From contig NZ_CP049867.1 in the NCBI RefSeq assembly GCF_011299595.1, positions 930,001-994,000 of the forward strand: a stretch of DNA of 64,000 nt, written 5' to 3'. This document shows, piece after piece, positions 439 to 42,715 of this stretch. The notes under the pieces are model-generated. The model made no database searches, was not told where the DNA came from, and worked only from the letters and a program-made list of their open reading frames with translations. How positions within the stretch are numbered: position 1 is the first letter of the stretch; each line of letters starts with the position of its first letter. The stretch is from Nocardioides sp. HDW12B. GTDB taxonomy: Bacteria; Actinomycetota; Actinomycetes; Propionibacteriales; Nocardioidaceae. A program made the translations under genes and the position numbers.

Positions 439-1764
439 GTGGCTTACTACCGGCAGGTCGGCGACGTCCCCCCCAAGCGGCACACCCAGTTCCGCGACGA
501 GCACGGCGCGCTGCGCTACGAGGAGCTGATGGGGGAGGAGGGGTTCTCCTCCGACTCCAGCCTGCTCTACCACCGCGGCGTGCCCTCGGCGATCGTCGAC
601 AGCCAGGTCTGGGAGCTGCCCGACCTCACCACCACCCCGAACCACCCGCTCAAGCCGCGTCACCTCAAGCTGCACGACCTGGGGGTCTCGACAGGCTCGA
701 CCACCGAGAACGGCTCGACCACCGGGGACGGCTCGACCACCGGGAACGGCTCGACCACCGACGCCGTCACCGGCCGCCGGCTGGTCCTGGGCAACGGTGA
801 CGTCCGGATCTCCTACGTCGTCGCGACCGAGCCGTCGCCGCTCTACCGCAACGCGGTCGGTGACGAGTGCGTCTTCGTCGAGACCGGATCCGGCACGGTC
901 GAGACGGTCTTCGGGGTGCTGTCGTACCGGGCCGGCGACTACGTCGTGGTCCCGCGCGCTACCACCCACCGCTGGGTGCCGGCCGAGGAGAGCCGGCTCT
1001 ACCCGATCGAGGCCAACAGCCACATCGCCCCGCCGAAGCGCTACCTCTCGAAGTACGGTCAGCTCCTCGAGCACGCGCCGTACTGCGAGCGCGACCTGCA
1101 CGGCCCGACCGAGCCTTTTCTTGTCGACTCGACAACCGACGGGGTCTCGACAGGCTCGACCACCGGAGACGGCTCGACCGACGTCTATGTCAAGCACCGC
1201 GGCTCCGGCCCGAGCGGGCTGGTCGGCACGCGGATGACCTACGCGACGCACCCCTTCGACGTGGTCGGCTGGGACGGCTGCCTCTACCCCTACACGTTCA
1301 ACGTCGAGGACTACATGCCGATCACCGGCAAGATCCACCAGCCGCCGCCGGTGCACCAGGTCTTCGAGGGCTGGAACTTCGTGATCTGCAACTTCCTGCC
1401 GCGCAAGGTCGACTACCACCCGCTGTCGATCCCGGTGCCGTACTACCACTCCAACGTCGACTCCGACGAGGTCATGTTCTACGTCGCTGGCGACTACGAG
1501 GCCCGCAAGGGAAGCGGCATCGGGCGCGGCTCGATCTCGCTGCACCCCGGTGGGTACGCCCACGGGCCGCTGCCGCAGGCGATCGAGGCGTCGCTGGGGG
1601 CGGAGTACTTCGACGAGACCGCGGTCATGGTCGACACCTTCCGGCCCCTCGAGCTCGGGGAGGGCGCGCTCGCGTGCGAGGACCCGGCGTACGCCTGGAC
1701 CTGGAGCGGGCGCGGCCCGGACTCCCGCCTCGCGGCCCCCGCCGACCCCACCCAGGAGAGCTGA
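439..1764 (+). CDS. hmgA: Homogentisate 1,2-dioxygenase with two repeat-derived insertions
   Basis: Fe(II) dioxygenase that opens the ring of homogentisate to maleylacetoacetate in tyrosine/phenylalanine breakdown; cytosolic. The N-terminus (AYYRQVGDVPPKRHTQFRD) and the C-terminal cupin segment fit the family. Metal-ligand candidates are the His of PYYHSNVDSDEVMF, the Glu of the same block and the His of SLHPGGYAHGP. The GTG at 439 matches the family N-terminus; an in-frame GTG at 430 would add three residues. Two low-complexity inserts, GSTTGDGSTTGNG-type around 682-780 and GVSTGSTTGDGST around 1123-1185, add about 50 residues. Both are encoded by the same repeat that occurs between genes at 18.46-18.94 kb. 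Reading frame and all core motifs stay intact, so the enzyme is probably functional with two surface loops. Stop is followed 4 bp later by the next gene. Confidence 0.93.
   Translation: MAYYRQVGDVPPKRHTQFRDEHGALRYEELMGEEGFSSDSSLLYHRGVPSAIVDSQVWELPDLTTTPNHPLKPRHLKLHDLGVSTGSTTENGSTTGDGSTTGNGSTTDAVTGRRLVLGNGDVRISYVVATEPSPLYRNAVGDECVFVETGSGTVETVFGVLSYRAGDYVVVPRATTHRWVPAEESRLYPIEANSHIAPPKRYLSKYGQLLEHAPYCERDLHGPTEPFLVDSTTDGVSTGSTTGDGSTDVYVKHRGSGPSGLVGTRMTYATHPFDVVGWDGCLYPYTFNVEDYMPITGKIHQPPPVHQVFEGWNFVICNFLPRKVDYHPLSIPVPYYHSNVDSDEVMFYVAGDYEARKGSGIGRGSISLHPGGYAHGPLPQAIEASLGAEYFDETAVMVDTFRPLELGEGALACEDPAYAWTWSGRGPDSRLAAPADPTQES
682..765 (+). repeat. Repeat element inserted in frame in hmgA (copy 1)
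   Basis: The DNA reads GGTCTCGAC, AGG, CTCGACCACCG, followed by an 18-bp unit (ACGGCTCGACCACCGGGG and variants) about three times. It codes for GVSTGST then NGSTTGDGSTTG-type residues. The ends GGTCTCGAC and CTCGACCACCG are the same ends that bound the intergenic elements at 18.46-18.94 kb. Insert length is a multiple of three and contains no stop in the hmgA frame. Confidence 0.85.
1138..1183 (+). repeat. Repeat element inserted in frame in hmgA (copy 2)
   Basis: A second copy with GGTCTCGAC, AGG, CTCGACCACCG, then one GACGGCTCGACC half unit, giving residues GVSTGSTTGDGST. It lies between the conserved HGPTEPFLV and DVYVKHRGSG blocks of the enzyme. These two blocks are normally almost adjacent, so this is an insertion rather than divergence. 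Confidence 0.85.
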
Positions 1765-10434: not shown

Positions 10435-10574
10435 CAGTCTGGAGGGCTGTGCGGGCTGCTGTCAAACACTTGTTGGGGGGTGGTGCCGATGTCGGCGCTT
10501 GTCAGCGCTGATCACTGGGGAACATCGACGTCGCCTGGTGACCTCGATCGTCCCTGATCGCCCTCGCCCGCCCG

Positions 10575-10767
10575 GATCCGAGGCTCTCGTCATACGTCCG
10601 GACGGTCTGCGGGGCTCCCGGACCGTCCAGGCGTATGACGAACGCGTGCATGCCTGCTCCGAACCAGCTCGGGACTGGATCGAGGCTCCTCGTCATACGT
10701 CCGGACGGTCTGCGGGGCTCCCGGACCGTGCAAGCGTATGACGAACGCCGGCATACCTGCTCCGAAC
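10575..10767. repeat. Two tandem copies of a ~90-bp palindromic element
   Basis: Copies start at 10575 and 10678 (103 bp apart) and are nearly identical. Each holds a dyad, CGTCATACG ... GGACGGTC facing GACCGTCC ... CGTATGACG, with ~18 of 20 positions paired around an 11-nt loop (TGCGGGGCTCC). The dyads are at 10588-10640 and 10691-10743. Each copy ends in CCTGCTCCGAACC. Differences between copies (GTCCAG versus GTGCAA) fall in the stem. Confidence 0.85.
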
Positions 10768-10807
10768 CGGCCCCAGACCGGCCTCGGAGCGGCCCCAGAC
10801 GGACGAC

Positions 10808-18450: not shown

Positions 18451-18939
18451 ACGCCGGTCGATCCGCGAGCGCTCCGGTGGTCGAGCAGCGAGCGCCAGCG
18501 AGCGTCGTCGAAACCTGGTGAGCTCGGCGGGGTCTCGACATCGGTGGTCGAGCAGCGAGCGCCAGCGAGCGTCGTCGAGACCTAGTGACCTGGGCAGGGT
18601 CTCGACATCGGTTGCTGCGCAACCTGCTCGACCACCGGTGGTCGAGCAGCGAGCGCCAGCGAGCGTCGTCGAGACCTGGTGACCTGGGCAGGGTCTCGAC
18701 GTCGGTTGCTGCGCAACCTGCTCGACCACCGGTGGTCGAGCAGCGAGCGCCAGCGAGCGTCGTCGAGACCTGGTGAGCTCGGCAGGGTCTCGACGTCGGT
18801 TGCTGCGCAACCTGCTCGGCCACCGGGGTGGGGTCTCGACGTCGGTTGCTGCGCAACCTGCTCGACCACCGGGGTGGGGTCTCGACGTCGGTTGCTGCGC
18901 AACCTGCTCGACCACCGGGGTGGGGTCTCGAGCGTCGTG
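18451..18939. repeat. Array of palindromic elements with shared ends and two centre types
   Basis: Gene-free 489-bp stretch between convergent cysM and a HAD gene. All units are bounded by GGTCTCGAC and CTCGACCACCG (or the reverse complement). Type I (starts near 18475, 18542, 18636, 18730) has the centre AGCGAGCGCCAGCGAGCGTC. Type II (near 18598, 18691, 18785, 18832, 18879) has the opposite orientation and the centre TCGGTTGCTGCGCAACCTG, itself a hairpin (GGTTGC/GCAACC). The last three type II units repeat every 47 bp. The open frames that cross it are repeat translations, not genes. Confidence 0.88.
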
Positions 18940-42544: not shown

Positions 42545-42577
42545 GCGGTCATTGTCGCCGACGCGTCACCGCCGGGG

Positions 42578-42715
42578 CCGCCGGGTGCGACCCGACGGGG
42601 CCCGAGGGACCCGGCGGGGTGGCCGGGTGGCCGCCGGGTGCGACCCGACGGGGCCCGAGGGACCCGGCGGGGTGGCCGGGTGGCCGGGTGGCCGGGTGGC
42701 CGGGTGGCCGGGTGG
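42578..42715. repeat. Two 53-bp direct repeats followed by five GGTGGCCG octamers
   Basis: Copies at 42578-42630 and 42631-42683 are identical. Each holds a dyad CCGCCGGGT ... ACCCGGCGG and ends in GGTGGCCGGGTGG. Five head-to-tail CCGGGTGG octamers occupy 42676-42715. The stretch lies 3' of the STAS gene and 5' of the GNAT gene, both leftward, so the dyads may serve as a doubled terminator. Confidence 0.88.

Follow-up and report, generated by a model that had tools for sequence, protein, structure and literature searches.

Palindromic repeats that are written into proteins have been described in Rickettsia, Wolbachia, various Proteobacteria and O. terrae (PMC2229807, PMC3733652). The Rickettsia palindromic elements (RPE) are reported both from spacers and as in-frame parts of conserved protein-coding genes, and translation of the product was reported for one RPE-bearing gene (PMC2229807, PMC6649704). 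They measure 105-146 bp and have 12-bp terminal repeats (PMC2229807). The GTAG and CGTC REPs are palindromes of 20-40 bp that are patchy among species and come in pairs and clusters; most are intergenic, some lie inside genes, tRNA synthetases among them, and no dedicated transposase seems to go with the CGTC type (PMC3733652). The CGTC-REP group, which includes RPE-4 and RPE-6, has a stem of 8-9 bp and a loop of 4-5 bp (PMC3733652, Table 1 of that paper). The Correia/NEMIS element of Neisseria occurs in forms of 107 and 155 bp, the open form in genes and the other in spacers; stop codons close every frame of the long form, which hardly ever lies in a gene (PMC2229807).

Here, palindromes of this kind are described in a high-GC actinobacterial family, the Nocardioidaceae, in core genes such as those of tRNA synthetases. 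Two inserts in a gene resembling that of homogentisate dioxygenase are probably copies of a REP-like palindrome that is dispersed in this family, kept in tolerant loops and expanded in multiples of 3 bp. A literature search that included literal strings of the element, and left subscription journals mostly outside its coverage, found no description of it.

The window, that is, the whole 64,000-nt stretch analysed, spans 930001-994000 of a 4,192,138-bp single-contig genome (the own genome, G000). The host gene belongs to the homogentisate 1,2-dioxygenase superfamily (Table 1); its likely start is the GTG at 439, and a start at 430 is also possible. The protein scores 29.2 bits against Pfam HgmA_C PF04209 (cut-off 21) and 49.8 bits against NCBIfam TIGR01015 hmgA, far under the equivalog cut-off of 510.75, so that 'hmgA' is used below as a family label, the function being unproven. 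The gene was matched in 50 of the 58 genomes searched, the own genome counted.

Table 1. Features of the host gene and of the related intergenic array in the window.
Feature	Position	Strand	Reading or basis
hmgA-like gene, homogentisate 1,2-dioxygenase superfamily	439..1764	+	one open frame; hosts both inserts
Site 1, exact short-loop element GGTCTCGACAGGCTCGACCACC	684..705	+	read VSTGSTT
Site 1, three 18-bp units, GAGAAC/GGGGAC/GGGAAC + GGCTCGACCACC	706..759	+	Tandem Repeats Finder 694-761, period 18; codons
Site 2, 51-bp stretch STTDGVSTGSTTGDGST	1129..1179	+	alignment with relatives, codons
Site 2, exact short-loop element GGTCTCGACAGGCTCGACCACC within the 51-bp stretch	1143..1164	+	read VSTGSTT
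Intergenic array, long-loop form of the element family	18475..18937	.	both strands; two pairs directly abut as inverted copies

The initial annotation had proposed that an intergenic repeat is inserted twice, in frame, inside hmgA. This turned out to be correct: both copies are exact and lie within the single open frame. The 22-bp GGTCTCGACAGGCTCGACCACC has 2 exact matches in the window, no further ones at up to 3 mismatches, and 0 in 100 shuffles. At both sites it is read (G)GTC TCG ACA GGC TCG ACC ACC, and the Thr codon ACA makes up 11 of the 477 Thr codons in 15 training ORFs. The identity between the ends of the inserts and those of the array near 18.5 kb was likewise recovered, since the pattern GGTCTCGAC-N{0,30}-CTCGACCACC occurs 9 times in the window, twice in hmgA and seven times in the array, with 0 expected. 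The proposed link to the array stands as regards these shared ends but not as regards the form: the array copies are of a long-loop form of 39-40 bp, whereas those in hmgA are of the short-loop form, whose remaining exact copies lie elsewhere in the genome. A direct derivation of the hmgA inserts from the array is therefore disfavoured.

The element appeared to be a palindrome, some 22-26 bp long, composed of a 4-bp GGTY/RACC stem, a 2-nt TC bulge, an apex that varies between a short CNRGC and a long hairpin, a possible extra 2-bp GA/TC stem and an unpaired 3' tail, ACCG(G). The stem covaries, being either GGTC..GACC or GGTT..AACC. Positions 4 and 16 of 150 listed copies are C-G in 85, T-A in 57, T-G in 6 and C-A in 2, hence Watson-Crick in 142/150, the search pattern being restricted to Y at position 4 and to R at position 16, and the copies coming from related genomes. 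These pairing counts support the stem with its TC bulge and the ACC tail. In the predicted fold, the long-loop forms share the 4-bp base and the tail of the short form; the opposite strand of the short form would fold into GGT/ACC plus TCGA/TCGA, which does not predict the covariation of positions 4 and 16. According to the flank profiles of 35 intragenic short, 70 other short and 48 long copies, the conserved end is ACCACC-G(G), and a G follows the tail in 32/35, 63/70 and 47/48 of them, respectively. The own genome holds 45 copies of GGTCTCGACAGGCTCGACCACC at up to 2 mismatches (reversed control, 0). The long-spaced pattern is matched there 56 times; 48 of these matches read as the long-loop form, and the other 8 are short elements with a repeat unit behind.

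Relatives of hmgA were collected by a protein scan, and the best 80 loci of the larger set were aligned. As the initial annotation had stated, the inserts sit between conserved blocks: the stretch at site 1 has 4-14 residues in the 80 relatives vs. 25 here, and that at site 2 has 4 residues in 70/80 and 6-10 in the others vs. 17 here. Both positions thus vary in length among relatives. The site-1 element was not recognisable in any of the best 80 relatives, the best matches near the site having 5-6 mismatches, as at unrelated places; at site 2, no element was recognisable in 77/80, and the relatives with 4 residues typically have (E/D)-G-T before D-V-E-V-L-V-K-H-R. Sixteen further rows of relatives, six of them identical to rows of the 80, contain neither insert. 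The assignment of the own genome to the Nocardioidaceae follows from hmgA rows of some of its family genomes that equal those of named members, e.g., L067 of G008 and L120 of Nocardioides aequoreus. Possible eroded site-1 copies in loci L124 and L127 (6 mismatches) were put down to noise, since 5-6 mismatches are also reached at unrelated positions of other relatives. The expectation of precise empty sites was nearly borne out at site 2, close to a clean insertion, and not at site 1, where the insert stands in place of a variable loop instead of interrupting a fixed loop. Nor did the inserts prove to be general in the family, and the residues at site 2 in the element-bearing relatives come from element DNA rather than from unrelated codons. 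In general, entry of a dispersed repeat into hmgA in frame is supported. That the element adds length to the protein also holds, with the reservations that much of the extra length at site 1 is made of tandem units and that the surface position of the loops is putative. Each 18-bp unit repeats the 3' part of the element and codes for 6 residues, and we infer that these units are a later expansion. An AlphaFold2 model built on alignment A1 had a mean pLDDT of 37.3, unusable for loop structure, and the homology with PDB entries 1ey2 and 3zds covers regions other than the loops.

Three relatives do carry the element at site 2. In Nocardioides marmorisolisilvae (L116) it is reversed and read VELVET: the 19 bases GGTTGAGCTTGTCGAAACC are an exact T/A-type element on the other strand, with 4 mismatches to the 22-bp C/G form. 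A Marmoricola MAG (L188) has it in the sense orientation with 1 mismatch, and Nocardioides marmoriginsengisoli (L131), a weaker case, in the sense orientation with 3. The L116 genome has 11 resident copies, all of which start with GGTT (T at position 4), and the 78 resident copies of the L188 genome are mostly GGTCTCGACAAGCTCGACC with an AAG apex, like its hmgA copy. Because the copies of L116 and L188 match the type of their own genome, the site-2 loop has probably been hit repeatedly. In the L131 genome no exact copy was found, which speaks against a recent arrival; the copy at site 2 would there be either a relic of some age or simply the weaker case. On a quick tree computed without the insert columns, no fewer than 3 changes are required to explain the site-2 trait; L116 and L131 come out as sisters and have the element in opposite orientations, a difference that suggests four site-2 events. 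The element is thus present in one loop of one enzyme in several species, some with it in the sense orientation and one with it reversed. In some relatives the site-2 or IleRS loops are longer and yet free of element DNA; these loops therefore lengthen by other routes too. The L188 gene also has a second insert, EPSSEPSSEPSN, which comes from a 12-bp repeat after HRWVPSH and is dissimilar to the element.

In-frame copies were also sought inside other genes of the genome and were found, so that the observation made on hmgA is confirmed and extends beyond it. The frame on each side of a copy was called with a codon model from 15 ORFs of the window, the element itself being ignored; the same window-trained model was applied to G002, a genome of the same genus, and to G262, all three genomes carrying the C/G form. 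The own genome has 34 short-form zones: 15 intragenic, 10 at gene edges, 5 called as shift, 3 opposite and 1 noncoding. Fourteen of the intragenic zones are in frame s1 (VSTGSTT-like) and 1 is in s0 (GLDRLDH). G002 has 39 zones, 11 of them intragenic (7 s1, 3 a1, i.e., antisense VVEPVET, and 1 s0), and G262 has 36, 9 of them intragenic (7 s1, 2 s0). When the three genomes are pooled, s1, which reads V-S-T-G/S-S-T-T, accounts for 28/35, s0 for 4, a1 for 3 and the other three frames for 0 (P ~3e-16 vs. 1/6). Three of the 35 zones are sites common to G000 and G002, and two calls are doubtful: L262, with a stop just beyond the zone, and L102, which lies six codons past a stop and is hence N-terminal. 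Without the three shared sites and L262, s1 accounts for 24/31 (P ~2e-13); without L102 as well, for 23/30 (P ~8e-13). Stop codons do not explain this bias, since the C/G short form, like both long forms, is open in all six frames when translated. In the own genome, 15/34 short-form zones were called intragenic, as against 2/40 long-form zones (Fisher 7e-5), the latter being not fully independent because many long copies are clustered; with three array zones added and L102 dropped, the short form is intragenic in 14/37 (Fisher 5e-4). As both forms are open in all frames, this split needs a reason other than stops.

According to Pfam, the host genes encode an acyl-CoA dehydrogenase, a prolyl oligopeptidase, GCV_T, biotin carboxylases, a carboxyl transferase, a response regulator with the element between its receiver and LuxR domains, a molybdopterin oxidoreductase, which we take to be NarG, and class I tRNA synthetases, for which the PDB matches name IleRS and LeuRS. 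One host, that of L020, has no Pfam match. Five short-form zones of the own genome (L101, L102, L025, L103 and L100) fall in four biotin carboxylase/carboxyl transferase genes.

It could be assumed that no mobile element is involved and that Gly/Ser/Thr linkers arose by local slippage in each gene, converging on a favoured peptide. The tandem 18- and 15-bp units, whose number differs between G000 and G002, and the natively variable length of the loops would agree with this. However, the same nucleotides, including the rare codon ACA, recur in unrelated genes and in copies called noncoding (e.g., L238 and L252), the same hmgA loop of L116 contains element-type DNA in reverse, read VELVET, and the stem positions covary. 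We therefore regard local slippage alone as a very improbable origin.

The IleRS and LeuRS pieces were each matched in 56/58 genomes. The element was found in none of the 29 displayed IleRS relatives (best match, 5 mismatches) and in none of the 29 displayed LeuRS relatives (best, 6); the IleRS of G002, which is outside the 29 displayed, carries it. The host IleRS reads FACP-VSTGSTT-CG, as compared to CP-x-CG in many displayed relatives, a net gain of 18-21 bp. At the inserts, the alignments with PDB entries have a gap of 7 (1ile), a gap of 7 (2v0c) and a break of 26 residues (6wy9). The IleRS insert (L017, ~1475-1530, and L200) lies between two cysteines of the CPxCG motif, possibly a zinc knuckle. 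No target-site duplication was readable in IleRS or LeuRS against their relatives; it could not be defined because these are diverged and their loops natively different.

In IleRS, the molybdopterin oxidoreductase and the acyl-CoA dehydrogenase, G000 and G002 have the element at corresponding positions, with different tandem lengths, in proteins that are 66-84% identical. These copies seem to have persisted over the divergence of the species while their length drifted; independent hits to the same places are the alternative. Such common sites, together with the several hits to the hmgA loop, might be taken to mean that the linkers were selected for a change in the host protein, e.g., in stability or partner binding. 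Yet the targets are many and unrelated, the inserts are of unequal length in the two genomes, and the majority of the relatives examined lack them, so that adaptive insertion appears very improbable to us. Spread in core genes would rather point to neutrality of the inserts.

The distribution of the element in the family is patchy. GGTYTCGACNRGCTCRACCACC is present in 106/293 family genomes, with 1 to 133 copies in each (control, zero), and reaches at least 20 copies in 25/293, as counted from the listing; zero copies were found in 187/293, including the same-genus G001. In a sample of the phylum it occurs in 4/396 genomes, two of them outside the family. A search for the Y1/RAYT transposase (PF01797), positive in 5/14 control genomes with E. 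coli among them, gave no match in the own genome and matches in 2/293 family genomes, both with zero copies of the element; a RAYT-driven REP in Nocardioidaceae was therefore rejected.

This rarity of PF01797 speaks for a spread with no transposase at all, in which existing copies recombine or convert one another, or in which short homologies allow template switching. The composite unit GGCTCGACCACCGGGGACGGCTCGACCACC, which recurs at unrelated places, and the failure to see a target duplication in IleRS and LeuRS against diverged relatives fit such a route. On the other hand, entry into element-free loops of unrelated genes exceeds what conversion between copies would achieve, and the presence of up to 133 copies vs. 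none in genomes of the same genus suggests an active agent; we find transposase-free spread rather unlikely. Another view, that the element works as a DNA signal, e.g., for uptake or replication, kept at many places whether coding or not, would be in line with its occurrence on both strands and in genes and spacers alike. The zero counts in most family genomes, G001 among them, the low copy number and the nested long and short forms argue against it, and we give this view hardly any credence.

Under the preferred reading, that of a dispersed REP-like element, copies would spread by copying through some enzyme or process. Those that enter genes would persist where the protein tolerates them, i.e., in length-variable loops, near N-termini and between domains, most of them in the one frame that codes for V-S-T-(G/S)-S-T-T; the frame bias suggests a frame-specific filter by protein function. 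Slippage in multiples of 3 bp, often as 15- and 18-bp units, would then make the genic copies grow or shrink and yield long Gly/Ser/Thr/Asp linkers. In the hmgA-like gene, a hairpin-forming repeat appears, from the reading of the frame, to serve as a soft linker that leaves the protein uninterrupted. Stem positions 4 and 16 each coincide with the third, synonymous base of a sense-frame codon, so that the hairpin can change without a change of the peptide. A bolder and doubtful idea is that the short form may have been selected to be readable, as a gene-compatible mobile palindrome that encodes a soft V-S-T-(G/S)-S-T-T linker, depends for its movement on an enzyme from outside the RAYT family and carries out a natural linker scanning of Nocardioidaceae genes. 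The copies could serve as natural replicates for studying which places in a protein accept an insertion, what part the choice of frame has in the filtering, and what enzyme mobilises such small palindromes when no RAYT is found.

Like the RPE and the protein-coding palindromes of Wolbachia, as these are reported, the element is found in spacers and in frame in protein genes; here the genes are unrelated and have relatives that lack the copy. It differs from the RPE in its size, its 4-bp stem and its high-GC actinobacterial host, as well as in having one strongly preferred frame and expanding in, e.g., 15- or 18-bp units. With the GTAG/CGTC REPs described in PMC3733652 it shares small size, patchiness, occurrence in pairs or clusters and some intragenic copies, including those in tRNA synthetases; those REPs are mostly intergenic, in contrast to the short-form zones of the own genome, 15/34 of which were called intragenic. 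A short unpaired tail (ACC in the predicted fold) and intragenic units recall the CGTC-REP, whereas the covarying stem is of 4 bp with a 2-nt bulge, not of 8-9 bp. Neither the GTAG nor the CGTC tag was found at either end of the element in the flank profiles of the 35, 70 and 48 copies, and 'actinobacteria', 'Nocardioides' and 'Streptomyces' have 0 occurrences in the main text of the intragenic-REP paper (PMC3733652). We therefore consider the element a novel variety among the already known in-gene palindromes, i.e., the RPE and intragenic REPs. As in Correia/NEMIS, two forms of one element have different locations, but here neither the C/G short form nor the long forms are closed by stops. 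As for the marks of a MITE, terminal inverted repeats with a target-site duplication, the element has a short inverted stem, and no duplication could be read in IleRS or LeuRS against their diverged relatives.

Two other tandem arrays of the window, at 10574-10768 (103-bp units) and 42576-42715 (53-bp/8-bp units), have consensus sequences that by eye are unlike the element. At L007, L028, L024 and G002 L204 (locus base ~1500), the first G of the element completes an ATG (TGATGGTCTCGAC), and the frame from that ATG begins M-VSTGST or M-VSTSST; in L024 it soon closes. At L008 (~2638475-2638664 of the own genome), the end of a gene seems to consist of poly-glutamine and, after it, eight 24-bp element units, which read as (GLDRLDHR)n-like octapeptides, a repeat-built C-terminal tail that the frame caller assigned to 'shift'.
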